Shown here: in pieces, positions 4,774-52,754 of the stretch | Layout: each line of letters starts with the position of its first letter | How positions within the stretch are numbered: position 1 is the first letter of the stretch | Assembly: GCF_000397205.1 (NCBI RefSeq) | Contig: NC_021237.1 | Coordinates: forward strand, 4,341,001-4,405,000 | Source: Pseudomonas protegens CHA0 | Lineage (GTDB): Bacteria; Pseudomonadota; Gammaproteobacteria; Pseudomonadales; Pseudomonadaceae | Direction of reading: 5' to 3' | DNA length: 64,000 nt | Program-made: the position numbers and the translations under genes | The notes under the pieces: generated by a model | The model's database searches: none | What the model was told of the DNA's origin: nothing | Seen by the model: the letters and a program-made list of their open reading frames with translations, nothing else

Positions 4774-4923
4774 TCACCCCTTGTTCCGGTTCTTCGCCCC
4801 GCCCTGGCGAGCCTTGAAGCGCGGATTGGATTTGCAGATCACATAGATGCGACCGCGACGCTTGACGATCTGGCAGTCGCGGTGACGATTCTTGGCTTCT
4901 TTGAGGGACGACAGGACTTTCAT
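4774..4923 (-). CDS. ykgO: Zinc-independent ribosomal protein L36 paralog
   Basis: A 49-residue L36 of the YkgO (type B, C-minus) class beginning [18 protein letters not shown] and ending with a basic tail. Compared with the usual zinc-ribbon L36, the first Cys of the ribbon is replaced (HRDC instead of CxxC) and the C-terminal His ligand is Phe ([10 protein letters not shown]), so zinc cannot be bound normally. Such paralogs replace the zinc form during zinc limitation and are normally repressed by Zur. A Zur-like site lies 28 bases upstream, which supports this. Confidence 0.9.
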
Positions 4924-4951
4924 GGCAACGCTTCCTTGGGACTGAAATTAA

Positions 4952-4966
4952 TGTAATAACATATCA
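4952..4966 (-). promoter_or_regulatory. Putative Zur box of ykgO
   Basis: On the minus strand the site reads TGATATGTTATTACA, matching the gammaproteobacterial Zur core TGTTATANTATAACA at 11 of the 14 defined positions with dyad symmetry retained. It lies about 28 bases upstream of the ykgO start, where bound Zur would block transcription when zinc is plentiful. The family is known to be Zur regulated. The site itself is read by eye. Confidence 0.65.
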
Positions 4967-4976
4967 TATTCACCAA

Positions 4977-4991
4977 TGAGAATTATTATCA
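4977..4991. promoter_or_regulatory. Putative Fur box next to the Zur box
   Basis: TGAGAATTATTATCA matches the Fur 7-1-7 core TGATAATNATTATCA at all but one defined position. It sits 10 bases beyond the Zur-like site, on the promoter side of ykgO. The next gene on the right (TPM protein) ends at 5110 facing this way, so the only gene it can serve is ykgO. Co-occurrence of iron and zinc operators here is unusual. Confidence 0.55.
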
Positions 4992-5109
4992 ACCATCAAT
5001 TTCCGCCACCCTGACCGCTCAACGATTCTCCGCGCCGCCATCGGCCCGTTGCCCGGCCCCGCAGGCTTGGGAGAGCAGGACGGCTGCGTGATCATTACCG
5101 CGCCCAGCC

Positions 5110-6324: not shown

Positions 6325-6410
6325 CGGCCCGCTTCCCGCATCGTTCATCCTGAAGCGGCGAACTTTACCACTGCCCGTACCGCGACCGATTCACCGCACC
6401 TCACCGCCAG

Positions 6411-6448
6411 CAAAAAAACACCGGGCAGGTGACCAAACCTGCCCGGTG
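6411..6448 (-). terminator. Rho-independent terminator of the homoserine-type gene set
   Basis: A 12-bp perfect stem (CACCGGGCAGGT, loop of six, ACCTGCCCGGTG) is followed on the minus strand by seven T residues. It lies 33 bases after the stop of the aldehyde dehydrogenase gene and is a classic strong terminator closing the leftward gene set. Confidence 0.9.
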
Positions 6449-6480
6449 CCCGGCGACCTGTCGTGTTGCTGCAATCAGCC

Positions 6481-7887
6481 TCAGCCCAGGCGGTTGAGGC
6501 ACACCACCTTGGGCTGGGTCATTTCCTCATAGGCGAAACGCACCCCTTCTCGGCCCAGGCTGCCGTACTTGAAGCCGCCAAAGGGCATGGCATCGAAACG
6601 GTAATCGGAAGAGTCGTTGATCATCACCCCACCCGCCTCGATCCGCCGCGCGGCATCCATGGCGATACGCAGGTCATTGGTGAAGATCCCTGCATGCAGG
6701 CTGTATTCGGGCTGATTGGCCAAAGCGATGGCCTGATCCAGATCGTCGAACGGTTGCAAGACCACCACTGGCGCAAAGACCTCGTCCTGCCACAGGCGAC
6801 TGCCGTGGTCGACATTCTCCAGCACCGTGGCGGCGTAACAGGAACCCCGGCGCTGATGCCCACAGAGCAAACGCGCGCCCTGTTGCAGCGCTTCATCCAC
6901 GACCTTCTGCGCGTTCTGCGCCGCCTGCAGGCTGATCATCGGCCCGATGTCCGTGCTGCTGGCCAGCGGGTCGCCACTGACCTGCTCCCGAGCCAGGCGC
7001 ACAAAAGCCTCTCGAAACGCCTCATAGATCGAGGCCTGGACCAGCAGGCGCTGGGTGCCGATGCAGTTCTGCCCCGCCGCCCAGAAGGCCCCGGACACGC
7101 AGCTTTCCACCGTCGCCGCCAGGTCGCAGTCGGTCATCACGATCACCGGCGCATTGCCTCCCAGGTCCATGACCAGCTTTTTCAACCCGGCGCTGCGGGC
7201 GATCTGCTCACCGGTGACGAAGCCGCCGGTGAACGACACCATGCGCACCTCACGGGCTTCCACCAGGGCTTTGCCCAGGTCCGCACCACCAGTGGCCAGG
7301 GTCACCACCGAGGTCGGCAGGCCGGCATCGCGCAAGTAGTCCACCAGCTTGATCGCCGACAGCGGCGCCAGCTCCGAGGGCTTGAGAATCACCCCGTTGC
7401 CCCCGGCGATGGCCGGGCCCAGCTTGTGCGCCACCAGGTTCAACGGATCGTTGTAAGGCGTGATCGCCAGGATCAGCCCCAAGGGCTCGCGCGAAAACCA
7501 GCCCTGGCGGTTTTCCGAACCTTCATAGGCATCAAACGGCAGCACCTCGCCGGCATTGCGCTTGGCCTCTTCGGCCGACAGCTTGAGGGTGTTGATGCAG
7601 CGCTTGACCTCTTTCTGCGCCTGTTTCAGGGTCTTGCCCGCTTCATCGACGATCAACCGGGCGAAATGTTCGGCGTCGCGCTCGATGTTCAGGGCCGCCC
7701 GCTCCAGAATCCGTGCCCGCTGATAGCGCGGCAGCGCCGCGCAGTCGCTGACACCCTGGCGGGCTTGCTGCAACAGGTAGGGCACGGCACAGGCCTCAAG
7801 GCGTGGCACTGTCCCGATCAGCCGACCATCGAAGGGGCTGCAGACATCAATCGAATCGGCGGCCAGCGCCAGACGTGACAGGTTCAT
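6481..7887 (-). CDS. NAD(P)-dependent aldehyde dehydrogenase, last gene of the homoserine-type set
   Basis: A 468-residue aldehyde dehydrogenase. The catalytic Cys is C275 in [10 protein letters not shown], and the cofactor segments ITPYNDPLN and [10 protein letters not shown] are present. At the position of the usual general-base Glu (ELGG) this protein has Asp (D241 in [11 protein letters not shown]), a noticeable substitution. The start at 7887 is the second of two ATGs: AGGAG is correctly spaced for it but almost touches the first. It begins 10 bases after the homoserine dehydrogenase stop, so the two are surely cotranscribed. By context its substrate may be aspartate 4-semialdehyde made by that enzyme; this is inference. 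Confidence 0.85.
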
Positions 7888-7897
7888 GGGCATGCTC

Positions 7898-8941
7898 CTA
7901 GCGGGCCAAGCGCGACTGGTGGATGTGAATGATGTCCGAGAGCAAGGCAAAGGCGGTCTCGATGCGCCCAGCGCCCGGCCCGGACACCGTCACCGCGCCC
8001 AGCAGTTCGGTGTTGAACGACACCGCGTTGATCGCCCCGCCAATGCCCGCCAGCGGATGGGCCAGGGGCAACAGGCGCGGCTCGACACTGGCTTGCAGCG
8101 AGCCATCGGCCAGGCGTTGGGCCGAACCGATCAGCTTCCAGCGCGCGCCCTCGGCACGGGCCTGCTCCAGGTCCTTGGCCGTCAGGCCGGAGATACCCCG
8201 GCAACTGACATCACTGACGGTCAACTGCGCGTCGAGCAATTCGTTGGCCAGGATCACCACCTTCAAACGCACGTCAAAGCCTTCGACATCCGCGCTCGGA
8301 TCGGCCTCGGCATACCCCAGGGCCTGGGCCTCGGCCACCGCTTCGGCAAAGCCCAGGCCGGCCTCCATGCGGGTCAGCACAAAGTTGGAGGTGCCATTGA
8401 GAATGCCCTCGAACCCCAGTAGCCCACTGCCGGCCAGGGACTGCTTGGCCATGCGGATCACCGGGGTGCCGCTCATCACCGCGCCTTCGTATTCGAAGGC
8501 CGCCAGATTGCGCTGGGCCAGGGCCTTGAGCTCGGCGCTGTGCAGGGCAATGGGGCCCTTGTTGGTGGTCACCACGTGCTTGCCCTGCTCCAGGGCCCAA
8601 CGGCAGAAGGTACTCGCTGGCTCGCCGTCCACCGGGTTGGTGAAAGTGGCCTCGGCAATGATGTCGGCGCCGGAGTCCTTGATCACCTGTTCGTTGAGCG
8701 CCTCCACCTGGCCGCCCGGCAGTTGCGCCAAGGCGCCCTTGGTTGCCGGCAGCTTGCTCAGCAGACCGGCATCCAGCCCCTGGGGAGCGACGATGGAGCC
8801 CAGGAACAGATCGCTGATGCCAACGATCTTCAAGCTGAAACCCAGTTGTTTTTTCCACGTCTGATTGCGCTCGGCAATCAGTTGCGCCAGGGCCCGGTTG
8901 ACCCCGCCGAAGCCCACCAGGGCGATGTTGTATTCAGTCAT
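7898..8941 (-). CDS. Homoserine dehydrogenase-like enzyme without ACT domain
   Basis: A 347-residue homoserine dehydrogenase family protein that interconverts homoserine and aspartate 4-semialdehyde with NAD(P). The Rossmann loop is GFGGVNRAL, the family signature [19 protein letters not shown] is intact, and the catalytic Asp/Lys region reads [22 protein letters not shown]. It is shorter than the biosynthetic enzyme of pseudomonads (about 430 residues) because the C-terminal ACT regulatory domain is absent. That suggests freedom from threonine feedback and possibly a catabolic direction. Start 8941 ([10 protein letters not shown]) is the only sensible start. It is followed at once by the aldehyde dehydrogenase gene. 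Confidence 0.85.
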
Positions 8942-9119
8942 TTTTGTTGTGTTCCATCCGGGTTGAGAAGCTGATGGACACAAGGTTAGGGGTCGGGACC
9001 GGGCAGTGAAATATGCCGTTTTGCTGTATTTGCTGAGCATTTTGCCCAGCGCCGGTGACCACTGCCGAAGGCTGCGCTCACAGGCGCTGGCTACGCAAAA
9101 CCCGCAACCAAGACTGCCC

Positions 9120-9292
9120 CTGTAGCCGCTGCCGAAGGCTGCACCCGGCTCCGCAGGAGACGCTAACCCTGGCGGTGCGGTCCAACAGGACACCACACAG
9201 GGTTCCATTCATCGCAACATGCTGATTGACCGCGCAGGAAGGTCCTTCGGCCCTTTTCGCAGCCTCGCCAAAGGCTCGGCAGCGGCTACAGG
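9120..9292. repeat. REP-type inverted pair (GTAGCCGCTGCC family)
   Basis: TGTAGCCGCTGCCGAAGGC at 9121-9139 has an inverted partner at 9262-9291 (GCTCGGCAGCGGCTACAGG), and a degenerate copy precedes it at about 9051-9085. This is the same family as the pair at 24337-24460. The 375-base gap between the Lrp gene and the homoserine dehydrogenase gene holds only these repeats and the latter gene's upstream region. Confidence 0.65.
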
Positions 9293-9316
9293 AGGCCAGA
9301 AGATCCGGCTCTGCGC

Positions 9317-9754
9317 TCAGGCCACAGAGGACAAGACAAAGGACGTCACGGTGTTTTCCACCCCGGGCAAGGCGGCGATGTCATTCCACACCCGGTGCAC
9401 CCGCTCTACGCTGGCGGCGCTGACCCGCACCAGCACATCGAACTCGCCGCTGAGCACTTCGCACTGGATGATCTCCGGCATCGCGCGCAGCGCCTGCAAT
9501 ACATCGGCCCCGCGCATGCGGTCGTAGCGGTAGACGAAGATCAGCGCATTGATCCGGGTATCCGCCCCGCGCCCTTCGCCCACGCGAATGGTGTAGCCCT
9601 GGATCGCGCCGTCGCGCTCCAGGCGTTCGATGCGCTGGCGCACGGCATTGCGCGACAGGTTGACCTTGGCCGCCAGCTCGGCATGGGCCGCCCGGGCATT
9701 GCGGGTCAGCTCGGCGATGATGCGTTCGTCCAGTGGATCCAGGATCCGCTTCAT
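9317..9754 (-). CDS. Lrp/AsnC-family regulator
   Basis: A 145-residue Lrp/AsnC regulator. It has an N-terminal helix-turn-helix (LDERIIAELTRNARAAHAELAAKVNLSRNAVRQRIERLE) and a RAM/ACT-like effector domain (ALIFVYRYDR... VLSGEFDVLVRVSA). Such proteins respond to amino acids and often control the adjacent amino-acid operon. It starts 22 bases after the threonine synthase-like gene with a strong GAAGGAGG site and sits before the homoserine dehydrogenase gene. It is therefore a good candidate for controlling this set in response to homoserine, threonine or methionine (inference). Confidence 0.9.
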   Translation of the reverse strand: MKRILDPLDERIIAELTRNARAAHAELAAKVNLSRNAVRQRIERLERDGAIQGYTIRVGEGRGADTRINALIFVYRYDRMRGADVLQALRAMPEIIQCEVLSGEFDVLVRVSAASVERVHRVWNDIAALPGVENTVTSFVLSSVA

Positions 9755-9776
9755 GAAGCCTCCTTCGCGGTGCCCA

Positions 9777-11153
9777 TCACAGTGCCTTCAGGCAGTGCAG
9801 TACGGCGGCAAAATCATCCGCCGCCAGTGCCTGCCACTGCGCCGTGGAAGGCGCCGCGACTGGCTGTGGTGCCAGCCCGGGAATACCCAGCGAGCCCAGC
9901 AACCGAGCCGACTTGGCCGGCGCGATCTCCCCCAGGGTGACCATGGGCGCCACCAGGCTGCGGCGGTACAGGCGCGCCGCCAGGACACCGATGGCGGCAT
10001 GGGGGTCGATGATGTAGCCGGTGTCCCGATAGAGGCTGCTGATCTCCTTGCCGGTCTCTTCATCGCTCACCGAGTAGGAGTCGATGATCATCCGCGCCTG
10101 CAGCCAGAACTCGTTGCCCAGGGTCATCTCGCCACTGCCCTCAAACCGCTGCATCAGGCCCGCCACCGCATGCGGGTCCTGGCCATAGAGCTCCCAGACA
10201 AAGCGCTCCAGGTTGGCGAACAGTGACAGGTCCATGGCCGGCGACAGGCTCTGGCTGGCCTCGGCGCGGCAATAGCGGTTCTTCAGGAACAGCTGGTGCA
10301 GGGCGTCGTTGCGGTTGGTGGCGACAATCATCTGGGTGATGGGCAGGCCCATCTTCTGCACGATATAGCCGGCATAGACCTCGGCGAAGCTCGCTGCCGG
10401 CACGCTGAAGCCGATGGGCCGCTGGCCGCCCCCCAGTTGCAGCACGGCATGGAAATACAGCACCAGCTGGGCCATGACCCCGACCCAATTGCTGGAGTTG
10501 AAGCCGATCACCTCGCGCTCGGCCAGGGGCCATTGGCGCAGCAGGCGGGCCACCAGGGTCTGGCAGTCGTCGAAGCTGCCCTGCACGGCAAAGCGCCACA
10601 GCCCGGGGTTGTGTGCCGCCTGCAACTGCTGCCCTTGCTGCTCGGGCACGCCGTGCTGCGGATAGAACACCAGCACCTGGGTCTGCGGGCAGTCCTTGAA
10701 GGCGTCGATAGCCGCCAGCGCGGTATCGCCGTTGCTGGCCCCCACCAGCACCCCGTGGCGCTGCCGGCGCTGGAGGAAATAGCCCACCAGTTGCGCCTGC
10801 AACCGCGCGGCAAAATCCTTGGCCGAGCCTGTGGGCCCATGGAACAGTTCCAGCACCCATTCATTGCGGTCGATCTGTCGCAGGGGCGCCACCGCGCGGT
10901 GGCCAAAGCCACTGTAGGCGCGGCTGAGCAAGGCCTTGAAGTCCGCCTCGGGCAGGCAGTCGCCGACAAAGGGGCTGAGCACCCGGAAGGCCAGTTCGGG
11001 GTAATCCAGGGTCGACCAATTGGCGATCTCCTGGGGGCTGAAGCGTGGCAGCTCGGCAGGCACGTACAGCCCGCCATCGGCGGCCACGCCGGATAACACC
11101 ACGCTTTCGAAATCCACCTGCTCGGCGGTACTGCGGGTACTCACATAACGCAT
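9777..11153 (-). CDS. Divergent threonine synthase-like PLP enzyme
   Basis: A 458-residue fold-type II PLP enzyme of the threonine synthase family, opening with the family N-terminus MRYVSTR and keeping the PLP Lys (K112 in FHGPTGSAKDF). Several segments depart from the threonine synthase motifs as I remember them: GATSGDTGSAA is GASNGDTALAA, SVPTGNFGD is SVPAASFAE, and the TLGTAHPVKFP phosphate-contact segment is TLGEIAPAKSA. The fold is retained but substrate recognition has probably changed. A housekeeping thrC would sit beside a feedback-regulated hom elsewhere. Its gene begins 16 bases after the LysR stop. Confidence 0.8.
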   Translation of the reverse strand: MRYVSTRSTAEQVDFESVVLSGVAADGGLYVPAELPRFSPQEIANWSTLDYPELAFRVLSPFVGDCLPEADFKALLSRAYSGFGHRAVAPLRQIDRNEWVLELFHGPTGSAKDFAARLQAQLVGYFLQRRQRHGVLVGASNGDTALAAIDAFKDCPQTQVLVFYPQHGVPEQQGQQLQAAHNPGLWRFAVQGSFDDCQTLVARLLRQWPLAEREVIGFNSSNWVGVMAQLVLYFHAVLQLGGGQRPIGFSVPAASFAEVYAGYIVQKMGLPITQMIVATNRNDALHQLFLKNRYCRAEASQSLSPAMDLSLFANLERFVWELYGQDPHAVAGLMQRFEGSGEMTLGNEFWLQARMIIDSYSVSDEETGKEISSLYRDTGYIIDPHAAIGVLAARLYRRSLVAPMVTLGEIAPAKSARLLGSLGIPGLAPQPVAAPSTAQWQALAADDFAAVLHCLKAL

Positions 11154-39674: not shown

Positions 39675-41477
39675 ATGTGGGCTGACGTCGACACAAAGCA
39701 AGATTTTCTTAACTATTCCGAGGTCGCAGATCTCGTTATCGATGTAATACGTGATCCCAACATGAGGCCAGTAACCGTTGGGGTATTTGGATCCTGGGGC
39801 ACTGGTAAATCGACGCTTTTGAACCTAATCGAAGACGGGCTGAATCCAATTGAGGACCACACTGACTTCGTTGTCGTTCGCTTCGACGCATGGTTGTATC
39901 AAGGATTCGATGATTCGCGTGCAGCACTCATGGAGGTGATCGCATCCACCTTAATGGATGCCACTAGGTCATCCGAAACCCTCTTCGAAAAAGCTAAGAA
40001 ACTGTTCTCCCGAGTCAGGAAAATGCGGTTGCTGGGCCTGATGGCTGAGGGCGGCGCACTCGCTGCTGGTGTGCCTGCTTTTGGGCTTGGTGCAAAGAGC
40101 ATGGACGCCATCGGAAACTTGTTTTCCGGCGAAGTCGACGCTAATGCCGTGTCTGTCTTGAGAGAAGATGGAGCTAAGGCAAAAGCACATTTCACGGATT
40201 TGTTAGCAGACGAAAAGCAAAGCACTCCCCCTAAGCAAATAGCAGCCTTCAGGGCGGAGTTTGCCGATGTATTGGAGGGACTGAACAAGACGCTAGTTGT
40301 ATTCGTAGATAATTTGGATCGATGCCTGCCGGCCCAGACTATTCACACTCTAGAGGCACTACGGCTTTTCCTCTTCATGGGGCACACAGCTTTCGTGGTT
40401 GCTGCTGACGAGGACATGGTTCGGCACTCGGTCAGTCAGCACTTCAAAGATCCAGGTGATAGGCATGTAACTGACTACCTAGACAAGTTGATCCAAGTTC
40501 CGGTCCGGGTACCTAAGTTGGGCGTTCAAGAGGTAAGGGCATATCTATTTCTGCTCTTTGCATCTGCTGGCGGTCAAGCAGACTCCGAAAGCTTTGAGCG
40601 TCTAAGAACAGGTCTTGAGGCAAACCTTCGTGAGGCTTGGAAGGATGAGCCCATTAGCACAGAGAAAGCATTAAGCCTCATGGGCGTAAACCCGCCCGCA
40701 GAGGTCGCCGAGGCTTTCCCAATAGCTGATCGCATCGCATCAATGCTTGCGACGTCGACCTCAGTTTCCGGAAATCCTCGAATAGTTAAACGGATGCTCA
40801 ATGTGATCCGAATGCGGTCTCGCGTTGCCAAAGTCCGGAAAATGCCTGTCAACGAAGCCCTCATAGCAAAGATCGCTCTCTTCGAGCGATGCATGGAAGA
40901 AAAGGCGATTGCACATTTGTACTCCGTCATCAATATCGCAGCTGGTGGCAAGCCGGAGATCATAGCGGTGCTCGAAGCTCTTCTAGAGGATCCAGAAAAG
41001 TTCAAAGCAGCATGCCCTGATGTGTGGAAAGAGAAGAGTGAGTTATTGCGTGAGTGGCTTACGTTGGAGCCCTCACTTGCTCCAATCGATCTTCGCCCAA
41101 TTGTTTACTTGAGCAGAGAAACGACGCCGTTGCGAGTGCTACGCGCGGGCCTATCGGCGGATGCTGCAAACGCCCTTGGGATCTTAAAGCGAACAATCAA
41201 CACGTCCTCTCCCGCGGCTATATCAGCCATAAAGACTATTCCGGCATCAGAACGAAGTCTTGTCATGGCCCAGCTAATTGAGTCAATGCGGTCGCATTCT
41301 GATTGGTCTGTAAGGGCCCCAGGTTTCGAGGGCGCGCAGTTGCTTGCAGAAAACTCGTCTGATGCGGGAAGTGTCCTTTCTGACTTCATCCACACGGTAA
41401 TGCCCGGCAAACTCAAGCCATGGCTCAGCGCAAAGGTGCGTGGTGCTAAGTGGTTCAAACAGAAAGAGTTGAAATGA
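39675..41477 (+). CDS. qatA: KAP-family P-loop NTPase QatA (anti-phage system)
   Basis: A 600-residue KAP-type ATPase, the QatA component of the QatABCD defence system. Walker A is GSWGTGKST (residues 39-47) and Walker B is VVFVDNLDR (208-216). A long helical insertion at 105-160 contains a hydrophobic segment (LGLMAEGGALAAGVPAFGLGA), as KAP proteins have. Start 39675 has GGGAGG six bases upstream. It is the first gene of qatA-qatB-qatC, with the next start one base after its stop. DNA here is visibly AT richer than the flanks and codon use differs, which indicates horizontal transfer. Confidence 0.85.
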   Translation: MWADVDTKQDFLNYSEVADLVIDVIRDPNMRPVTVGVFGSWGTGKSTLLNLIEDGLNPIEDHTDFVVVRFDAWLYQGFDDSRAALMEVIASTLMDATRSSETLFEKAKKLFSRVRKMRLLGLMAEGGALAAGVPAFGLGAKSMDAIGNLFSGEVDANAVSVLREDGAKAKAHFTDLLADEKQSTPPKQIAAFRAEFADVLEGLNKTLVVFVDNLDRCLPAQTIHTLEALRLFLFMGHTAFVVAADEDMVRHSVSQHFKDPGDRHVTDYLDKLIQVPVRVPKLGVQEVRAYLFLLFASAGGQADSESFERLRTGLEANLREAWKDEPISTEKALSLMGVNPPAEVAEAFPIADRIASMLATSTSVSGNPRIVKRMLNVIRMRSRVAKVRKMPVNEALIAKIALFERCMEEKAIAHLYSVINIAAGGKPEIIAVLEALLEDPEKFKAACPDVWKEKSELLREWLTLEPSLAPIDLRPIVYLSRETTPLRVLRAGLSADAANALGILKRTINTSSPAAISAIKTIPASERSLVMAQLIESMRSHSDWSVRAPGFEGAQLLAENSSDAGSVLSDFIHTVMPGKLKPWLSAKVRGAKWFKQKELK

Positions 41478-41478
41478 T

Positions 41479-42234
41479 ATGGGGACGTCGACATCGAGTA
41501 AGGGGCCAGGGGGAAATTCTCCCTACGTGCCTGGATGGGTTGACACTGATGGTCAACCGCCAATACCTGAGGCACCTCCGCAGCGCTTCAAGGACTTCCG
41601 CACTAACCTGGGAAAGTTTGTCGCCAGTGGCGACCGTGAATATCTTCGATCGGCCGTAAGCAGCTATGCAGGTGCAGCAACCGGTGGTAGCGCGATCGGC
41701 GCGGCAAGATTTGGATCTATGGCTGGGGCCGGGGGAGCGCTCTTTGGAGCAATGGCCGCTTTTCGGGAAGGTCAATCGATACCAGGACTGGATTTGGCAA
41801 CACTCAATGGCCAGGACACCGATTTAGCAATCAGCGCTATTGTCGAAGTTCTGGCAACTGAGGATGGCGACTCTGACCGTGTTCGCGTAGCAATGAATGA
41901 AGCGCTCTCAGAATGCCTTCAGGGGTACGACGAATTCGACTTTTCTAGCATCACGGATGAAATGCTTGTCCAAATGATGTTGGTTTACGTGACGAATTGT
42001 GTATTCAGCCAAGTCGTTTTGGATTCGAATGATGCATTCGCGAAAACAAACTCAGCAGGTCAAGTGGAGCAAGCGGAGAAGGATCTACATTCGTTGGTTG
42101 AGTCGGTCACTGACAAGCATATGCGGCCTTTACTGAGTGGAGATTTGAAATCATTTACCTCTGTCCGCGTTGAACAGGTCCAGCTTTTAGTAATTAAGGA
42201 AGTTTGGAGTGAGTGGGAGAGCTACGAACAGTGA
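41479..42234 (+). CDS. qatB: QatB-like protein
   Basis: A 251-residue protein without a known enzymatic domain. It has a Gly/Pro-rich N-terminus (MGTSTSSKGPGGNSPYVPGWVDTDGQPPIP). A small-residue hydrophobic stretch follows (AVSSYAGAATGGSAIGAARFGSMAGAGGALFGAMAAF), then an acidic helical C-terminal half. This fits QatB in position, size and the GGNSPYVPxW opening I associate with that family. It begins right after qatA and its end overlaps qatC. The molecular role is unknown. Confidence 0.8.
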   Translation: MGTSTSSKGPGGNSPYVPGWVDTDGQPPIPEAPPQRFKDFRTNLGKFVASGDREYLRSAVSSYAGAATGGSAIGAARFGSMAGAGGALFGAMAAFREGQSIPGLDLATLNGQDTDLAISAIVEVLATEDGDSDRVRVAMNEALSECLQGYDEFDFSSITDEMLVQMMLVYVTNCVFSQVVLDSNDAFAKTNSAGQVEQAEKDLHSLVESVTDKHMRPLLSGDLKSFTSVRVEQVQLLVIKEVWSEWESYEQ

Positions 42235-43538
42235 CAACCCTTATTTTTCAACATGAAATGCATCTGCTACCCCCTCCATCAAATGGCTTAATACCAGTGC
42301 TCATGTACGGAGCGCGGCCTCCGGCTCGAGGAACATGCTCCATCGGGGGGCCGGTCAGAGATGCGGTTCGGCGGCTGGGTGCGCCAGTTAGTAGAGCTGG
42401 ATTCGATCTGTTAACCATTGCTATGGCGGTCACCGCCGCTGACACCTTTGTCGATAAAGCAGAGTCGGATGATGGGTGGGCACGGGTTCTACGTTTATCG
42501 ATTCCAATAGCAGACCCGGACCTTTGGAATCCTGCCGTCCCGACTCTTCAGAAAGCTTTGCATTTTCTGAGCGGAGATATTTGGGAAATCACATTGATGC
42601 CAGATGGGCCACGTCAGTTGCCAGCACAGAAGCGTGGGCATATCACTGTCATGGCAGGTCATGATTGCGTTAGCCTTTTTTCGGGAGGGATGGATAGCGG
42701 TATCGGTGCACTTGATCTTTTAGCCAAAGGTCGTCGTCCTCTTTTGATCAGCCATTCCTACCGAGGTGACTCAGAAAAGCAGATATCAATTCGCGACCAA
42801 CTCCCTGTGAATGTATCGAGATTCGCTGCGGTTGCGCACCCGATCTCCTGGCTGGGAACACAGACTGATGTGCAAATGCGTACCCGCAGTTTTAATTTCC
42901 TTGCGTACGGCACTCTTGTTGGTGCGACCCTAGCTCAGCTCCGCGTGGCTGGCCCGCCTGTTGAGCTTTTCGTTCCTGAAAACGGCTTAATCGCGCTCAA
43001 CCCTCCAATGACACGAAGACGAATAGGTGCGCTGAGTACACGAACTACTCACCCTCATTTCCTCCGGCTCTTCCAACAGGTTTTAGATACCGTTGGTCTC
43101 CCTGTGAAGGTCATAAATCCTTATTCACTGAAAACAAAGGGGGAGATGCTGATTGAGTGCCTAGACCAAAATTCTCTCAATCTTCTGGTATCAGAGACCG
43201 TCTCGTGTGGCAAATGGAAGAGGACTCATGTTCAGTGTGGCAAATGCGTCCCATGCATAATACGTAGGGCATCGTTCCATGCAGCAGGCATGACTGATAC
43301 CACCCAGTACGGAAGAGGGCAAGATCTGAGTTCAGTGATGAACGACAGCAAAGCACGGGATGACCTAATGGCTATGATTCTTGCCTCTAGAAGATTGCCA
43401 CATGCTGATGCTGCAAGATGGGTTCCCCAGGCAGGACCGCTGCCTTCGGGGCGTCAAGCTAGGGATGATTTGGTGGCCGTGGCAACAAGAGGAATGAAAG
43501 AGGTAGGGACGTATTTGGCAAGCCTCAACCTTCTTTGA
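42231..43538 (+). CDS. qatC: QueC-like PP-loop protein QatC
   Basis: A 435-residue QueC-like protein, the C component of Qat. The PP-loop is SGGMDS at 151-156. The zinc-site cysteines of QueC are kept as C326, C336, C339 and C342 (CGKWKRTHVQCGKCVPCIIRR), so both ATP-pyrophosphatase and zinc sites look intact. It has an N-terminal extension of about 140 residues not found in QueC. The GTG at 42231 overlaps the qatB stop (GTGA) and is preferred to the GTG at 42213. In known systems a TatD-like nuclease gene (qatD) follows; none is found here. Confidence 0.85.
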   Translation: MTTLIFQHEMHLLPPPSNGLIPVLMYGARPPARGTCSIGGPVRDAVRRLGAPVSRAGFDLLTIAMAVTAADTFVDKAESDDGWARVLRLSIPIADPDLWNPAVPTLQKALHFLSGDIWEITLMPDGPRQLPAQKRGHITVMAGHDCVSLFSGGMDSGIGALDLLAKGRRPLLISHSYRGDSEKQISIRDQLPVNVSRFAAVAHPISWLGTQTDVQMRTRSFNFLAYGTLVGATLAQLRVAGPPVELFVPENGLIALNPPMTRRRIGALSTRTTHPHFLRLFQQVLDTVGLPVKVINPYSLKTKGEMLIECLDQNSLNLLVSETVSCGKWKRTHVQCGKCVPCIIRRASFHAAGMTDTTQYGRGQDLSSVMNDSKARDDLMAMILASRRLPHADAARWVPQAGPLPSGRQARDDLVAVATRGMKEVGTYLASLNLL

Positions 43539-44089: not shown

Positions 44090-44473
44090 GTGGACACCGC
44101 TGTTGACTCCCCTGCCCCACTGCTCAACACCACCCGTCTTGCAGAAGCGCTGCAGCGCTTCGCAGACGATCGCGACTGGCAGCAATTCCACTCCCCCAAA
44201 AACCTGCTCCTAGCTCTAACCGGTGAAACCGGTGAGCTCTGCGAAATTTTCCAGTGGATGAGCGAAGCCGACGCCAAGGATGCAGCCATGCGTCCAGAAA
44301 CCGCTCAAGCCGTGAAAGATGAATTGGCCGACGTACTCATGTACCTCGTGCGATTAAGCACGGTGCTGGGCGTCGATCTAAACGAGGCGGTGACAAACAA
44401 ACTCGCGTTGAACGGCCAGAAGTACCCCGTCGACAAAGCCAAAAGCACCAGCAAGAAGTACGACCAACTCTGA
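44090..44473 (+). CDS. MazG-like nucleotide pyrophosphohydrolase
   Basis: A 127-residue all-alpha NTP pyrophosphatase of the MazG/RS21-C6 class. Metal-binding residues are in order: E46xxE49xxE52 in TGETGELCEIFQW and E78xxD81 in VKDELADVLMYLVRL. It would hydrolyse a nucleoside triphosphate to the monophosphate. GTG 44090 follows GAGGCGAGATC. The gene ends 24 bases before the nuclease-helicase gene, with which it forms a two-gene unit. Enzymes of this fold serve house-cleaning or, in defence loci, nucleotide depletion or signal degradation. Confidence 0.82.
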   Translation: MDTAVDSPAPLLNTTRLAEALQRFADDRDWQQFHSPKNLLLALTGETGELCEIFQWMSEADAKDAAMRPETAQAVKDELADVLMYLVRLSTVLGVDLNEAVTNKLALNGQKYPVDKAKSTSKKYDQL

Positions 44474-44497
44474 CCCCCTGGGCTCTAAGGACCACTT

Positions 44498-46372
44498 GTG
44501 ATCGTTTACTCGGCGACCAAACAACAATTCCTCGACGTTTGCGACAACAACGATATTGAAGAGGTGATCCTCAAGCACTTCAAAGAGGCCACTGGCAAGA
44601 AAGTGGCGGCTTCAGAGATCCGATCTTGGCAGGGATCGCTCACTTACATGGCCAAGGTCCTAAGAGACAAGGACCTGCCGGAGGATGCCGGAGTAGCCAT
44701 TGAGCTACATATTCCGCAATCCATGAAACGTATCGATTTCTTGCTGACAGGCCACGACCAGCACCAGGGTAAAAATGCCGTGTTGGTGGAACTGAAGCAA
44801 TGGAGCAAAGCCAGCGCCACCAGTAAAGATGCGATCGTAAAAACCGCGCTGGGTGGCAGTCATGTTGAAACCATTCATCCTTCCTATCAGGTGTGGTCTT
44901 ACGCCACTTTGCTGGAAGGCTTCAATGAAGCCGTCTATGACCAAGGCATCAAAGTACACCCATGCGCTTACCTGCATAACTATGTCAGCGATGGTGTTAT
45001 CAACTCGGCTCACTACGACGCCTATACCAGCAAGGCACCTTTGTTCCTAAAAGGTCCTGACGAGTTGACGAAACTGAGAAGTTTCCTCAAACAGCACATC
45101 TATTACGGCGACAACCAAGACGTTCTTTACGAGCTTTCTAGCGGTAAGAGCCGCCCCTCCAAAGCTTTGGCTGAAGCTCTAACTGGGCTAATGGAAGGCA
45201 AGCCTGAGTTCGTTCTGATTGATGATCAAAAGACCGTCTTCGAGTCAGTACTTGCGGCGGTCGCAGAGGCCTCTGCCGATGCTCCGAAGGTGCTGATCAT
45301 TGAGGGTGGCCCTGGTACCGGAAAGACAGTAGTAGCCATCAACCTGTTGGTCAGGCTCACGGCCTTACGCCTGATGAGCAGGTATGTCTCAAAAAATGCC
45401 GCCCCACGTGCCGTGTACGAGAAGAAACTGGTCGGCACTGTCAAGCCCACCAAGTTCTCCAGTCTGTTCTCCGGCTCGGGGGCCTATACCGATATCAAGC
45501 CTGACTTTTACGACGCGCTGATCATTGATGAAGCCCACAGGCTGAATGAGAAAAGCGGCTTTTATGGCAACGAGGGTGAAAACCAGATCAAAGAACTAAT
45601 TGGGTCCGCTAAATGCTCAGTGTTCTTTATCGACGAGGATCAACGCGTAACCCTTAAGGATATTGGCAGCAAACAAGCAATCCGAGAGTTTGCTGAGGCC
45701 CGAGGGGCAACGGTGGAGGAATACACCTTGTCTTCCCAGTTCCGTTGCAGTGGCTCCGATGGTTACTTGGCATGGCTAGATGACGTGCTGGGCATTCGCA
45801 AAACCGCGAACCCAATACTCGATGCCAGTGAGTACGAGTTCAAAGTGTTCGACTCGCCACAAGCAATGCATGAGGCAATCGAACAAAAGAACCACGGAAA
45901 CAAGGCGCGTGTCGTCGCAGGTTACTGCTGGCCATGGAGCAGCAAGAAAGACCCTAAAGCCAAAGACATTGAAATCGGTGAACACTACGCCCGCCAATGG
46001 AACCTGGATCAAGACGGCAGTCTGTGGATCATCGCGGATAAATCCGTGGATCAGGTCGGCTGTATTCACACCTGCCAAGGATTAGAGGTGGATTATATCG
46101 GTGTGATCATCGGGCCAGATTTGATCGTGCGCGATGGAAAAGTAGTGACATCCCCCAAAGCGCGAGACAAATACGACAAGACGATTCGTGGTTGGAAAAG
46201 GCTGATGAAGGAACAACCCGACTTCGCACAGCAAGAGACTGATCTCATCATCAAGAACACCTACCGGACCTTGATGACCCGAGGAATGAAGGGCTGCTAC
46301 TTGTACTGTACCGACCCAGAGACGGCGCAATATTTTGCCAACCGACTGGCAGAAGGCGAGTCAGCTTTGTAG
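44498..46372 (+). CDS. Nuclease-helicase fusion (DUF2075, Schlafen group 3-like)
   Basis: A 624-residue protein. The N-terminal part carries a PD-(D/E)XK-type pattern, with D80 in KRIDFLLTG and E98-x-K100 in VLVELKQW. The second half is a superfamily 1-like helicase of the DUF2075 family, with Walker A GGPGTGKT at 270-277, DEAH at 344-347 in LIIDEAHRLN, an sensor-like FIDEDQRV, an SSQFRCSGSDGYLAWL motif and the late CIHTCQGLEVDYIGVIIG and TRGMKGCYLYC motifs. GTG start, right behind the MazG-like gene. The DNA is AT richer than the core genome. I infer a phage- or plasmid-defence role for the pair; it is not demonstrated. Confidence 0.82.
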   Translation: MIVYSATKQQFLDVCDNNDIEEVILKHFKEATGKKVAASEIRSWQGSLTYMAKVLRDKDLPEDAGVAIELHIPQSMKRIDFLLTGHDQHQGKNAVLVELKQWSKASATSKDAIVKTALGGSHVETIHPSYQVWSYATLLEGFNEAVYDQGIKVHPCAYLHNYVSDGVINSAHYDAYTSKAPLFLKGPDELTKLRSFLKQHIYYGDNQDVLYELSSGKSRPSKALAEALTGLMEGKPEFVLIDDQKTVFESVLAAVAEASADAPKVLIIEGGPGTGKTVVAINLLVRLTALRLMSRYVSKNAAPRAVYEKKLVGTVKPTKFSSLFSGSGAYTDIKPDFYDALIIDEAHRLNEKSGFYGNEGENQIKELIGSAKCSVFFIDEDQRVTLKDIGSKQAIREFAEARGATVEEYTLSSQFRCSGSDGYLAWLDDVLGIRKTANPILDASEYEFKVFDSPQAMHEAIEQKNHGNKARVVAGYCWPWSSKKDPKAKDIEIGEHYARQWNLDQDGSLWIIADKSVDQVGCIHTCQGLEVDYIGVIIGPDLIVRDGKVVTSPKARDKYDKTIRGWKRLMKEQPDFAQQETDLIIKNTYRTLMTRGMKGCYLYCTDPETAQYFANRLAEGESAL

Positions 46373-47297: not shown

Positions 47298-47503
47298 ATG
47301 CTGTAGCCCTTCGATATTGCTTAAGCTCTCTCACTGCCCAGCCACGGCCATAGACACGTGGTGAGAGGCAACGCGTCCCTCCCCTGCTACGTCCCCTTTC
47401 ATATTCACTACTGAACTCCCAAACCAGTTGCGAAAAGAATATCCTTACGGCCTCTTACGCTGTTTCGTACAGCGAATCGGGAAACCTACGGATAGCCCCC
47501 CGC

Positions 47504-48271
47504 ATGACCTCTGCACCTATCAGCAATCAATCCAACCCTGCTTGGAGCCGCGACGAGCTCGTTCTTGCCCTGAACTTGTACCTCCTTCACCGCAACGGTT
47601 TACCCGGTGTGAATCATCCGGATGTTTTGGCGTTATCGCAGTCTCTTAATCTCATCGGCAATGCCACCGGGGTGAGCAAGAATCAGAGCTTTCGCAATGC
47701 CAACGGTGTGTGCATGAAGCTCAACAACTTCCGGCGTTGGGACCCGAGCTACACCAACAATGGGCGTACGGGGCTTGCAAAAGGCAATAAGGATGAGCAG
47801 TTGGTGTGGCTGGAATTTGCCAATGACCCGGAGCGTCTTGCTGAGGTTGTGGCGGCGATCAATGCCAACGTTCAGACGATTCCAGCTAGCCCTATCGATT
47901 TAAGTGCAGCGGATGACCCGGGCTTCTTCGAAGCAGAGGAAGGCAAAGTGCTCACTCGGGTGCATCGGGTACGGGAAAGAGACAAGAAAATCGTTAAGCG
48001 CAAAAAGGAAGAGGCACTGAAGCAGCATGGGGCACTGCAGTGTGAGGCGTGTGGTTTTAACTTCAGCCAAACCTATGGTGCAGATGTGGAGGGGGTGATT
48101 GACGTCCACCACACTAAACCTCTGCACACGCTCCAGCCGGGTGACAAAACTAAGCTCGCTGATTTGGCGTTGTTGTGTGCCAATTGCCATCGGGTGGTGC
48201 ATTCGCAACGTAAGTGGCTGAGTGTGGCTGAAGTGAAAGAGCGGTATCAGGCCAATCTGAAGCAGACGTAA
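47504..48271 (+). CDS. HNH endonuclease, complete copy
   Basis: A 255-residue protein. The N-terminal domain (residues 10-130, [25 protein letters not shown]... GVCMKLNNFRRWDP) resembles the DNA-recognition part of McrA-like enzymes. The C-terminal HNH domain has zinc-site C180/C183, the catalytic HH in IDVHHTKPL (H202-H203) and C225/C228 with H229 and H233 (LCANCHRVVHS). It is probably a restriction-type or McrA-like nuclease acting on modified DNA. ATG 47504 opens MTSAPISNQSNPAW. The gene has been duplicated downstream. Confidence 0.85.
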   Translation: MTSAPISNQSNPAWSRDELVLALNLYLLHRNGLPGVNHPDVLALSQSLNLIGNATGVSKNQSFRNANGVCMKLNNFRRWDPSYTNNGRTGLAKGNKDEQLVWLEFANDPERLAEVVAAINANVQTIPASPIDLSAADDPGFFEAEEGKVLTRVHRVRERDKKIVKRKKEEALKQHGALQCEACGFNFSQTYGADVEGVIDVHHTKPLHTLQPGDKTKLADLALLCANCHRVVHSQRKWLSVAEVKERYQANLKQT

Positions 48272-48402
48272 ATGTGATGTTGTGACTCCCTGGTTTAGGG
48301 GGTCAGAGTGGCTGGTTGGACAGTTTGGTGGCGATCTTGCGGCCGCCTTCGCTGGCAAGCCAGCTCCTACACGGGCTGGCGTCAACCGATGGCTGTGCGG
48401 TG

Positions 48403-48918
48403 TCAGCGAACATTCCGATAAAGCATCAACCGCGCCACCTCATGCATCCCCCGGGTCAACTCCAGCAACCGTTCAAACTCCCGCGGATGCTCCTGCGCCA
48501 CATCCTCACGCGGTGTGTTTGACGCTAGGTCATGCAACGTCGCGCCACTACCGTCGTGCTGCATCTGCAACAAAAAGTCCTTGGTCACGCCGCCAATCAC
48601 CGGAAAGGTCCCTTCCCTCAATACCAGCGGCACCACCCGCTCCCCCTCCGGCGCTGGCTGCTGAATGTCCCGCCCCATGGCGCCATTGGTGAAGGGCATC
48701 CCGGCCATGCCGGCTACGGTGGGCAGCAGGTCGGCGAGGCCGACGGCTTCTACGATCACCTTGGGCTGCAACATCCCCGGGGCATGGATCAGCAGCGGTA
48801 CGTTGTTGCTTTCCAGCCCTAGCTGTTCAAAGGCGGGGGCCATGTGGGGGATCTGGCTGATACGGGTGTTGTGGCCGCCCAGCCGGCGTTGCCGCCGATC
48901 AGGTAGAGCTTGTGGTAC
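48403..48918 (-). pseudogene. 3' fragment of the sulfatase gene, internally deleted
   Basis: Its C-terminal 150 or so codons match the sulfatase gene at 50718-51189 closely (same ending ARLMLYRNVR, same TNGAMGRDIQQPAPEGERVV block). At about 48875 the homology jumps to the sequence at about 51577, removing about 385 bases. It then runs to about 48916 out of frame and stops at the duplication junction. It lacks the nucleophile, membrane domain and start, so it is a dead fragment left by the segmental duplication. Confidence 0.85.
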
Positions 48919-49109
48919 TCGATATTGCTTAAGCACTCTCAATGATCTGCCACACCCGTGGCCGCGTAGTGAGAGCATCCCGTCCCTCCCCTGCTCGCCT
49001 CCCTTTCCTACTCACTACTGAACTCCCAAACTAGTTGGGAAAAGAATATCCTTACGGCCTCTTACGCTGTGTCGTACAGCGAATCGGGAAACCTACGGAT
49101 AGCTCCCGC

Positions 49110-49216
49110 ATGCCCCCTGCACCTACCCGCAATCAATCCAACCCTGTTTGGAGCCGCGACGAGCTCGTTCTTGCCCTGAACCGGTATCTCCTTCACCGCG
49201 ACGGTTTACCCGGTAA
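49110..49216 (+). pseudogene. 5' remnant of second HNH gene
   Basis: The first 36 codons match the HNH gene at 47504 with few changes ([28 protein letters not shown]). Homology ends abruptly after the codons for LPG at 49216, and the frame then closes in unrelated sequence at 49256. The ribosome-site region upstream is also conserved, so a short truncated peptide may still be made. Confidence 0.8.
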
Positions 49217-50205: not shown

Positions 50206-50587
50206 CCCTATCGATTTAAGTGCGGCGGATGACCCGGGCCTCTTCGAGGCAGAGGAAGGCAAAGTGCTCACCCGGGTGCATCGGGTACGGGAAAGAGACA
50301 AGAGAATCGTTAAGCGCAAAAAGGAAGAGGCGCTGAAGCAACATGGAGCGCTGCAGTGTGAGGCGTGTGGTTTTAACTTCAGCCAAACCTATGGTGCAGA
50401 TGTGGAGGGGGTGATTGACGTCCACCACACTAAACCTCTGCACACGCTGCAGCCGGGTGACAAAACTAAGCTCGCCGATTTGGCGTTGTTGTGTGCCAAT
50501 TGCCATCGGGTGGTGCATTCGCAACGCAAGTGGCTGAGCGTGGCTGAAGTGAAGGAGCGGTATCAGGCCAATCTGAAGCAGACGTAA
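50206..50587 (+). pseudogene. 3' part of second HNH gene, HNH domain intact
   Basis: It resumes HNH homology at the codons for PIDLSAADDPG and runs to the same stop as copy A (QANLKQT). A GTG at 50264 opens a 107-residue frame that keeps the entire HNH nuclease domain (CEACGFNFSQ, DVHHTKPL, CANCHRVVH) without the N-terminal recognition domain. It could still produce a small nuclease-domain protein, but no clear ribosome site was seen, so remnant is the safer call. Confidence 0.75.
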
Positions 50588-50717
50588 ATGTGATGTTGTG
50601 ACTCCCTGGTTTAGGGGTCAGAGTGGCTGGTTGGACAGTTTGGTGGCGATCTTTCGGCCACCTTCGCTGGCAAGCCAGCTCCTACACGGGCTGGCGTCAA
50701 CCGATGACTACGCGGTG

Positions 50718-52754
50718 TCACCGCACATTCCGATAAAGCATCAACCGCGCCCCCTCATGCATCCCCCGCGTCAACTCCAGCAACCTCTCAAACTCCTGCG
50801 GATGCTCCTGCGCCCCATCCTCACGCGGGGTGCTCGACGCTAAATCATGCAAGGTCGCACCACTGCCGTCGTGTTGCATCTGCAACAAAAAATCCTTGGT
50901 CACACCGCCAATCACCGGGAAGGTTCCTTCCCTCAACACCAACGGCACCACCCGCTCCCCTTCCGGTGCAGGCTGTTGAATATCCCGCCCCATGGCGCCA
51001 TTGGTGAAGGGCATCCCGGCCATGCCGGCTACGGTGGGTAGCAGGTCGGCGAGGCCGACGGCTGCTTCGATCACTCTGGGCTGCAACATCCCCGGGGCAT
51101 GGATCAGCAGCGGTACGTTGTTGCTTTCCAGCCCTAGCTGTTCAAAGGCGGGGGCCATGTGGGGGATCTGGCTGATGCGGGTGTTGTGGTCGCCGAAGAA
51201 CACGAAAATCGTGTTGTCGTAGTAGCCGCCCGCTTTGGCGATCTCCATTAGGCGGCCGATGTTGAAGTCCAGCAGGCGCACGGCGTTGTATTGCGCCAGG
51301 CTGCGGGAACCCGCGGCCTGGACTTGTTCCAGGGGCAGGTCCTGGGCTTGGAAGCCGTCGTTGTCCTTGGGGATGGTGAACGGGCGGTGGTTGCCGGAAG
51401 TTTGCAGGTAGGCGAAGAACGGCTGGTCCTGGGGGATGGCGCGCAGCAGGCGGTCGCTTTCCTTGAACAGGTCAAGGTCGGAGATGCCCCAGACGTCCAC
51501 CTGGGGCGATTGCCAGTGGCTTTCGTCGTACAGGCGCACGTTGTCGATGCTCTGGCGGATCAGGCCGTTGATGTTGGCCCAGCCGGCGTTGCCGCCGATC
51601 AGGTAGAGCTTGTGGTAGTCGCTGAAGGCGTTGATCAGGCTGTGTTGGCGGGTGATCAGGGGCTGGCGGGTGGCGGTCTCTTGGCGGGTGACGTCGGGCA
51701 CGCCGGTGATGCTGGCCCAAACGGTTTTGGCGGTGCCGGTGACCGGGACGTAGAAGTGTTTGAAGAACCAGCTCTGGCGGGCCAGGCGGTCGAGGTTGGG
51801 GGTGGGGTTGAGCGGGTTGCCGTAGGCGCCCACGGCGCTGGTGCCGAGGGATTCGAGCATGACGAAGATGACGTTGGGCGGCCGTGGGCGGTCGATGCGG
51901 TACGGCTGCACGCCTTGTTGGCGGGTGAAGCTCAGGCGCTGCGGGTCCGGGTGGTCGACGCCGAGGTAGCGGGCCAGGGCCGGGTAATGTTGGCGCACCT
52001 GGGCTTCGTCGTACTGGGCCTCGCCGGCCTTGAGGGTGTCGTAGAAGAACAGCACGGGGTTCAGGCCCAGGGCGGCGATCTGGCTGTTGCCGGAGAAGTA
52101 GGCGTCGCTCCAGCGCAGGGGGACGGGGTTTTCCAGGTTGAGGTTTTCTACCCGGCCCAGCAGGCCGAGGAACACGGCGGCGATGCCCAGGACGCTGACG
52201 CTGGCCAGGGACCAGCGGCCCAGGGGTTGCGCCGGGCGGTCGAGGGTCCGGCGTTCCAGGCGCAGCAAGGCGTAGCAGCACAGGGCCAGGGCGCTGCCCC
52301 AGGCGAGGACGATCCACAGCACCGGGTAGCTTTCCCAGAGCATTTGCCGGGAGATCTGTGCGTCGTCCAGGTAGCGCAGCACGGTGGCGTTGATGCGCAC
52401 GCCGAGGTAGGCGTAGTGGCCGAAGTCGATGATGTACAGCAGCCCTACCCCGCCCAGTACAAGCAGCAGGTAGGCCCGGGCCAGCCAGCGCAAAGTTGGC
52501 AGCCGCAGCAGGTTCCAGCGCGGCAGCCAGGCCAGCAGGGCCAGGGGCAGCAGTAGCAGCAGGGTCAGGCGCAGGTCGAAGCGCAGACCGATGCCGAGGG
52601 TCTGCAGAATGGCCTCGCGCTGGTCGGCGGCACTCAGGTCCACTCCGGAAAACCCCACGGCGAACAGCAGCCGCAGCAGTGCCAGCAAGCCGAATACCAG
52701 CCCAATTGCGCCCACGCCGTAGCGCAGGCGGCGTGATTGCAACCCGCCCATCAT
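50718..52754 (-). CDS. LTA synthase-like membrane sulfatase
   Basis: A 678-residue inner-membrane protein with about five N-terminal membrane helices and an alkaline-phosphatase-superfamily domain facing the periplasm. The nucleophile Thr is in PVTGTAKTVWAS, and metal motifs are in VIFVMLESLG, GNHRPFTIP and FFGDHNTRI. Such enzymes transfer phosphoglycerol or phosphoethanolamine groups onto envelope glycans or lipids. Start 52754 follows AGAGG. It is the last gene of a three-gene leftward unit with a membrane protein and a sialidase-like protein, and its 3' half is partly duplicated at 48403-48918. Confidence 0.85.
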   Translation of the reverse strand: MMGGLQSRRLRYGVGAIGLVFGLLALLRLLFAVGFSGVDLSAADQREAILQTLGIGLRFDLRLTLLLLLPLALLAWLPRWNLLRLPTLRWLARAYLLLVLGGVGLLYIIDFGHYAYLGVRINATVLRYLDDAQISRQMLWESYPVLWIVLAWGSALALCCYALLRLERRTLDRPAQPLGRWSLASVSVLGIAAVFLGLLGRVENLNLENPVPLRWSDAYFSGNSQIAALGLNPVLFFYDTLKAGEAQYDEAQVRQHYPALARYLGVDHPDPQRLSFTRQQGVQPYRIDRPRPPNVIFVMLESLGTSAVGAYGNPLNPTPNLDRLARQSWFFKHFYVPVTGTAKTVWASITGVPDVTRQETATRQPLITRQHSLINAFSDYHKLYLIGGNAGWANINGLIRQSIDNVRLYDESHWQSPQVDVWGISDLDLFKESDRLLRAIPQDQPFFAYLQTSGNHRPFTIPKDNDGFQAQDLPLEQVQAAGSRSLAQYNAVRLLDFNIGRLMEIAKAGGYYDNTIFVFFGDHNTRISQIPHMAPAFEQLGLESNNVPLLIHAPGMLQPRVIEAAVGLADLLPTVAGMAGMPFTNGAMGRDIQQPAPEGERVVPLVLREGTFPVIGGVTKDFLLQMQHDGSGATLHDLASSTPREDGAQEHPQEFERLLELTRGMHEGARLMLYRNVR

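Follow-up and report, generated by a model that had tools for sequence, protein, structure and literature searches.

Does a gene for a small MazG-type nucleotide pyrophosphohydrolase, lying directly in front of a gene for a predicted nuclease-helicase, form a functional unit with it, and could such a unit act in defence against phages and other mobile DNA? The question is raised by a two-gene locus of Pseudomonas protegens CHA0, located at positions 44090 to 46372 of the window, by which we mean the whole stretch of DNA analysed here (64,000 nucleotides, positions 4,341,001 to 4,405,000 of contig NC_021237.1; the host genome is a single contig of 6.87 Mb). It is clear that the pairing of MazG with the nuclease-helicase is real, selective and widespread, and we read the pair as a candidate mobile-DNA/phage defence module which would combine nucleotide hydrolysis with DNA attack, with a probability of about 0.5. 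The pair has the following features:

44090..44473, + strand: MazG-type nucleotide pyrophosphohydrolase of 127 amino acids (aa), like deoxycytidine triphosphate (dCTP) pyrophosphatase 1 (open reading frame, Pfam, PDB match to DCTPP1 with E-value 6.5e-29)
44225..44332, + strand: MazG metal site E46, E49 ... E78, D81 (invariant in 18 aligned sequences; aligned to DCTPP1 E63/E66/E95/D98)
44498..46372, + strand: nuclease-helicase, type A, 624 aa (open reading frame, Pfam, alignment)
44498..45187, + strand: N-terminal PD-(D/E)XK-like head, residues 1-230 (invariant residues; profile match to the PDC-S41-type N-terminus)
44702..44902, + strand: putative catalytic span E69 ... RxD80 ... E98xK100 ... 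Q131xxxY135 (alignments)
45287..46315, + strand: Schlafen group 3 / DUF2075 helicase domain, residues 264-606 (PF09848, E-value 6.1e-102)
45305..45328, + strand: Walker A GGPGTGKT, residues 270-277 (sequence, alignment)
45527..45538, + strand: Walker B DEAH, residues 344-347 (sequence, alignment)

Both genes start with GTG and lie on the same strand with a spacer of 24 bases, and an AAGGA stands ahead of the GTG of the nuclease-helicase gene; the coordinates, lengths and spacer of the two open reading frames are as given in the preliminary description of this locus. A protein search with the window nuclease-helicase gave at least ~8000 scored relatives, paired or not, and the full-length helicases of the SLFN-g3 family were of several types. 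Type A, to which the window protein belongs, has a PD-(D/E)XK-like head, type B has one of the GIY-YIG family (PF01541, over the cut-off in locus L019 and under it in L027), where Y41, Y52, G54, R62 and E95 do not vary among 33 sequences, and type D has the architecture of the PADLOC candidate system PDC-S41, assigned by PADLOC scan in two proteins and from the N-terminus in the others; two more divergent types occurred once each. In a helicase tree of 34 rows, rooted by midpoint only and with long branches flagged, type D forms a single clade apart from types A and B (support 100/100), and type B a single clade (100/100) which lies among the type-A rows. On two Bacteroidota plasmids (L052, 6001-9987, and L054, 6001-9736) two different nuclease-helicases of the window family are found in tandem, with a segment-wise identity to the window protein of ~46-55% for the first and ~30-38% for the second; the Marivirga copies appear broken by frame changes.

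Adjacency to MazG was counted in several sets of genomes, with the remnants in G073 and G121 and a partial match in G303 not entering the counts. Within the window's genus, 16/149 genomes contained a match. Besides the two remnants, these gave a single locus of type B and 13 of type A, among which the G050 copy is frameshifted, and MazG adjoins ten of the 13 type-A loci (absent in G059, G091 and G144) as well as the sole type-B locus. Among the strong full-length matches in 398 Pseudomonadota genomes, all type-A loci (6/6, one being the window itself) and all type-B loci (3/3, the MazG of G181 being broken) have an adjacent MazG, vs none of the type-D loci (0/10, inspected with flanks of ~0.8 kb on the upstream and ~1.4 kb on the downstream side) and a single type-C copy without it, i.e. 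9/9 vs 0/11 (Fisher p 6e-6). A genome-wide search of the same 398 genomes gave 66 MazG matches at E <= 1e-15, none of which were in the ten type-D genomes. The new loci from 369 genomes of the class, three of whose matching genomes overlap the earlier samples, had MazG in 1/2 cases for type A, 1/1 for type B and 0/8 for type D (one broken), with one locus of another type also lacking MazG. For the distinct Pseudomonadota loci this comes to 16/20 for type A, 5/5 for type B and 0/18 for type D (PDC-S41), which confirms the expectation that the two genes would be found linked in other genomes. The pair was also present in 4/4 further genome contigs (L001-L004), where overlap with the sampled genomes is possible.

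With regard to plasmids and phages, 14 loci were opened from 40, 4 and 39 matching records (two of the plasmid lists overlap), and MazG was adjacent in seven, from Halomonas, Marivirga, the archaeon Halalkalicoccus, Priestia, a Microcystis phage, Lactiplantibacillus and Ligilactobacillus. The pair is hence found across phyla, in an archaeon, Bacillota, Bacteroidota, Pseudomonadota and a cyanophage. MazG lies downstream, not upstream, of the helicase gene in G194 (L026), Halomonas and Ligilactobacillus, and thus the linkage outlasts gene reordering, and three type-B loci (L019, L027 and L028) have a four-base overlap between the MazG and helicase frames. The spread is patchy with signs of decay, the 16/149 genomes of the genus including the frameshifted copy and the two remnants, and the complete E. 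coli genomes gave no DNA match to the window pair. In the Lactiplantibacillus plasmid operon (L145, 1-5180) a gene annotated as (deoxy)nucleoside triphosphate pyrophosphohydrolase, a DEAD/DEAH helicase, MazG and a GIY-YIG helicase follow in a row, and in Halalkalicoccus jeotgali (L055, 5648-9051) an endonuclease/exonuclease/phosphatase-family gene starts ~20 bases after the pair and is a possible third member there.

The helicase part of the window protein matches SLFN-g3_helicase (PF09848) over residues 264-606 with 341.9 bits against a cut-off of 24 (E-value 6.1e-102), and with both Walker motifs present it belongs with the Schlafen group 3-like DUF2075 helicases, as had been proposed. In the head, E69, R78, D80, E98, K100, Q131 and Y135 show no variation across 24 aligned sequences (the window's included) and are likewise constant in 17/17 N-termini, and the E-RxD-ExK-QxxxY motifs are invariant at the aligned places in 9/9 PDC-S41-type N-termini; in a profile comparison the type-A head and the PDC-S41-type N-terminus were matched with a probability of 96.8% (E-value 2.6e-10). 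The head contains the D ... (D/E)xK motif of PD-(D/E)XK nucleases together with QxxxY, in an order E..RxD..ExK..QxxxY which is that of the RecB-like members. Sub-threshold Pfam matches of 17 heads fell in eight weak families, of which NERD (3/17), DUF2726 (2/17) and MTES_1575 (1/17) point to PD-(D/E)XK nucleases and the other five do not. We describe the head as PD-(D/E)XK-like and as a putative nuclease. The preliminary description had singled out D80, E98 and K100, which proved invariant in the 24 sequences; the PD-(D/E)XK fold of the head is a putative one. Pfam found no Schlafen ribonuclease (RNase) core in the window protein.

The window MazG matches the Pfam families MazG-like (E-value 8.9e-17) and MazG (E-value 4.5e-7, above cut-off), and its nearest solved relatives among the PDB sequences are chains of dCTP pyrophosphatase 1 (DCTPP1 / RS21-C6; E-value 6.5e-29). 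It has the ExxE ... ExxD metal motif of the all-alpha nucleoside triphosphate (NTP) pyrophosphohydrolase group, and an alignment of 18 pair MazGs (the window's included, one archaeal) shows no exchange at W30, E46, E49, E78, D81, K104 or N108, so that the metal site E46, E49, E78 and D81 is intact as stated before; W56 is present in 17/18 (Phe in the archaeal one) and Y85 in 16/18 (Phe in two). The substrate pocket of DCTPP1 includes His38, Trp47, Trp73 and Tyr102 as well as E63/E66/E95/D98, according to the published account (PMC4491611), and the window MazG matches seven of these eight residues (W30, E46, E49, W56, E78, D81 and Y85). Its closest affinity is with the dCTP / 5-methyl-dCTP pyrophosphatases, and dCTP and 5-substituted dCTPs are the predicted substrates, although the His38 equivalent of the base pocket is absent.

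A MazG tree of 42 rows was made after removal of L124, L125 and L141, because their open frames are far longer than MazG. The MazGs paired with type A require six label changes in this tree (bootstrap 4-7), at least two of which are forced by well-supported branches, and a group with 99/97 support brings together MazGs paired with type B (three) and with type A (two) and one that is unpaired; many inner branches of the tree are weak. Both the label changes and the mixed group suggest that MazG partners were probably exchanged or recruited repeatedly, and such exchange would fit a need for the chemistry of the enzyme better than a tightly co-evolved complex. The 22-kb record of Microcystis phage Mwe-JY31 (L059, 5657-7863) contains MazG and a type-A nuclease-helicase, both annotated as hypothetical, and its MazG groups with type-B partners.

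The surroundings of the pair in the window contain two further features of interest:

39675..43538, + strand: QatA, QatB and QatC, a separate defence system outside the module (PADLOC)
47504..48271, + strand: HNH endonuclease, a frequent neighbour and not a required part (PF01844)

The pair thus stands beside Qat and an HNH nuclease gene, and in an AT-rich island, as the preliminary description had it: between 39 and 48 kb the guanine-plus-cytosine content of each of the nine kilobases lies within 0.475-0.543, vs 0.569-0.710 for the remaining kilobases of the window. We compared the open reading frames within 5 kb of 14/20 loci (those with room for a control) with one control stretch from each of the same 14 genomes (PADLOC, E <= 1e-15). 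There were 67 PADLOC families matched among 113 neighbour frames vs four among 137 control frames (three RtcR models and one mad3), a ratio which overstates the number of genes, since families were counted and several related models match one frame. The expected presence in defence islands is borne out by this comparison, and the first 25 of the 67 neighbour families include ZorB, ZorE, ThsB, AbiEi, beta, cll, NsnA, HEC-01A and methyltransferases. Ordinary genes are also found near the pair by Pfam, e.g. cytochrome bd oxidase subunits, and restriction-modification genes are annotated nearby in Hymenobacter (which has no MazG there), Priestia and Ligilactobacillus.

Of the 18 Pseudomonas-family type-A loci, nine have an HNH gene, belonging to one of two types, at a distance of up to ~1.3 kb, vs 0/14 control stretches. 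We rejected it as an obligatory third gene, as it is present in 9/18 loci only and the two types are alike solely in their HNH part. Contig L004 shares the left flank, pair and HNH gene with the window and at the DNA level gave no match to Qat, which makes the window one arrangement of an exchangeable island; two other genes precede the MazG pair there (2641-10821) where the window has Qat. Membership of the pair in the Qat operon was rejected on the basis of L004 and of the 25 neighbour families shown, none of which is Qat, and the Qat neighbour is probably incidental. The list of open reading frames holds none of at least 70 aa on the + strand between QatC and MazG, Pfam does not assign either of the two frames checked directly behind the pair to the TatD type, and the window Qat system may be without QatD. 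Further along, a local duplication is seen (47890-48879 vs 50206-51194, 94% identical, 990 bp) together with a second duplicated stretch (47311-47608 vs 48919-49214, 89% identical), leaving a full and a truncated HNH gene and a truncated and a full sulfatase-like gene (family name read from the sequence).

A different aspect of the family is seen at the C-terminus, where Pfam identifies a LexA/UmuD-type domain (Peptidase_S24) in the type-B proteins of L019 and L027 and in the long type-A protein of L026. The corresponding PF00717 was found in 112 of the best 120 relatives of the L019 protein and in 108 of the best 120 of the L026 protein, and in none of the best 120 relatives of the window protein. 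In all 33 aligned type-B proteins Ala597-Gly598, Ser633 (in GESMN) and Lys675 are invariant, with a spacing and motif similar to those of LexA/UmuD self-cleavage, and the tail with its Ala-Gly site and Ser/Lys dyad suggests a DNA-damage-linked switch in these relatives. Damage sensing is predicted for some forms in this way, and for the family as a whole it would be no more than an inference. A scan for LexA boxes in the 300 bp upstream of 23 loci, with the best match compared to shuffles, gave one site, 266 bases upstream of MazG at the S24-bearing, type-B (GIY-YIG) locus L050 (p ~0.007 before correction), where 0.15 loci at this level would be expected by chance among 23. SOS transcriptional control was rejected as a general feature, as the remaining 22/23 loci were unremarkable, with control still possible for L050. 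The LexA-type domain of relatives, the sister GIY-YIG architecture and the dCTP-pyrophosphatase affinity of MazG are new beyond the preliminary description.

How might the two proteins work together? The motifs of both are intact, their linkage is conserved and their context is rich in defence genes; the recurrence of the pair in very different microbes, often among defence genes, makes it probably an unnamed defence system. The claim of a defence module stood as far as a conserved two-gene unit in defence-rich neighbourhoods is concerned, and its anti-phage role is itself predicted from that context, with abortive infection as a candidate mode. The catalytic activities, substrate, trigger and anti-phage effect would be as follows: MazG would hydrolyse nucleotides of the pool, with dCTP and 5-substituted dCTPs as its most likely substrates, and upon infection or replication stress the nuclease-helicase would translocate on DNA and cut it, the two jointly starving and damaging phage replication. 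In the S24-bearing relatives, self-cleavage may make activation dependent on DNA damage or on RecA filaments, and the short form found in the window would have to be switched another way.

There is a set of findings which weigh against this reading. Four of the 20 type-A Pseudomonadota loci and seven of the 14 plasmid and phage loci (two of Hymenobacter and those of Methanosphaera, Streptomyces (divergent), Paenibacillus, Lysinibacillus and Enterococcus) have no adjacent MazG, and the MazG partner is thus not obligatory. Four scans of viral contigs at low sensitivity gave one weak fragment. For the head, residues 1-230 match no Pfam family above cut-off and a head-profile search gave no PDB sequence relative, so that the PD-(D/E)XK assignment is based on the motifs and profile comparison and not on a fold. 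The cytosine contact His38 of DCTPP1 has no equivalent in the window MazG and is not conserved among pair MazGs; as the pocket residues were tabulated for pair MazGs, their signature speaks for a likely chemistry of MazG and does not mark it as special to the pair. As for a damage-linked switch, the 624-aa window protein extends little beyond the helicase domain and gave no Pfam match to S24, five Bacillota GIY-YIG proteins of 553-587 aa are too short for that domain, and the window is among the 22/23 upstream regions with an unremarkable LexA-box score.

Much of this evidence would also suit a role in self-protection, where the nuclease-helicase attacks DNA with unusual cytosines in the manner of a type IV-like restriction effector, and MazG spares host DNA by ridding the host pool of dCTP that is modified or damaged. 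The affiliation of MazG with the dCTP / 5-methyl-dCTP pyrophosphatases agrees with this, as do the genes annotated as MutT or (deoxy)NTP pyrophosphohydrolase beside the pair in Priestia and Lactiplantibacillus, the HNH gene often found near it, and the acceptance of MazGs from several clades, which is expected if chemistry alone matters; however, intact MazG-less copies are present in G059, G091 and G144, genomes with only the ordinary MazG of the genus, and we regard this explanation as unlikely. A defence-type role overall, be it this one or the module proposed above, is probable. A further explanation of low probability is DNA repair or mutation avoidance, with MazG sanitising the pool and the nuclease-helicase processing damaged DNA or stalled forks under damage control. 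MazG proteins are house-cleaning enzymes and a GIY-YIG nuclease is also found in UvrC, and both the LexA/UmuD-type domain of relatives and the LexA-box-like site of L050 (the p ~0.007 being uncorrected for 23 loci) are in line with it, whereas a repair function sits poorly with carriage by about a tenth of the genus genomes, with remnants, with the lack of an evident LexA box in the other 22 loci, with neighbourhoods rich in defence genes and with the presence of the pair on plasmids and in a phage record.

The adjacency of the genes, and the four-base stop/start overlap at L019, L027 and L028, could also bring to mind a toxin-antitoxin system in which MazG neutralises the nuclease-helicase by direct binding. 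We find this quite improbable, as such a partner should be obligatory and G059, G091 and G144 have intact copies without it, the partners are mixed between MazG clades, and the gene order is reversed in some loci. That the genes share islands by coincidence with no functional link is an explanation we give hardly any weight: MazGs of the window's group are not rare, as seen from the 66 matches in 398 genomes, but adjacency was 9/9 vs 0/11 within that very sample and recurs across phyla and in two architectures, and coincidental linkage was rejected on the PDC-S41 control (0/18) and the cross-phylum pairs.

Returning to the pair as a phage defence module, a more specific form of this reading can be put forward tentatively. 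The pair may represent an immune module that is widespread and as yet unnamed. Its nuclease-helicase, which in many lineages brings along a LexA/UmuD-type domain for self-cleavage, would respond to RecA filaments on phage DNA or damaged DNA by cutting DNA, and the paired dCTP-type pyrophosphatase would drain or filter dCTP, with both the genome and its building blocks under attack; nuclease heads and MazG partners would be interchangeable, and the window would hold a short form lacking the switch. If true, there is a large nuclease-helicase defence family beyond PADLOC 2023, encoding nucleotide metabolism and DNA attack as one unit, and the LexA-type tail of relatives would be the sensor for an effector class with mostly unknown triggers.

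The pair is not a named system in the resources searched. In PADLOC-DB 2.0.0 the window MazG matched no family at E <= 1e-3 and the helicase protein gave partial matches only, and a named PADLOC system was rejected because no system's models cover both genes; NCBIfam gave no match above cut-off for the pair or for the relatives tried. In 2015, Burroughs et al. reportedly predicted systems containing MazG. DefensePredictor cites Burroughs 2015 and lists MazG among predicted, unvalidated defence domains (PMC13092281), which would thereby gain a concrete and testable partner if the reading is true. The main text of that paper contains no mention of helicase, Schlafen or DUF2075 and its MazG section names no Schlafen-type partner, with its figures and supplement lying outside this comparison and overlap there being possible (PMC13092281). 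In the literature searched, DUF2075 was not found together with MazG or with anti-phage, the papers mentioning it were, from their titles and the starts of their abstracts, not about defence, and broader searches, including the available parts of PMC12839542 and PMC9503650, gave nothing recognised as a MazG/nuclease-helicase pair.

Each of the two proteins does have known relatives. Human and mouse DCTPP1 (RS21-C6) shares the family, metal site and most pocket residues with the window MazG, which differs in being bacterial, in being paired with a nuclease-helicase and in not conserving His38. The Schlafen (SLFN) group 3 proteins have the helicase family PF09848 in common with the window protein, where a PD-(D/E)XK-like head (or in relatives a GIY-YIG head) takes the place of the RNase core. 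The single-gene systems Nhi and AbiO show partial helicase similarity to the window protein (E-values 2e-10 and 2e-11), confined to ~180 residues of the ATPase core, and are not known to include a MazG. The PADLOC candidate PDC-S41 is homologous both in its helicase and in its N-terminal domain, which shares the E-RxD-ExK-QxxxY motif, although the window protein matches its profile only in part (E-value 7e-15, best stretch 391-603) vs full-length matches for two type-D proteins (E-values 1e-207 and 2e-289). Lacking a full-length match and falling in a separate clade (100/100), the window protein was rejected as a PDC-S41 member, and it is the adjacent MazG, absent at 18/18 PDC-S41 loci, that further sets the window type apart from this system.

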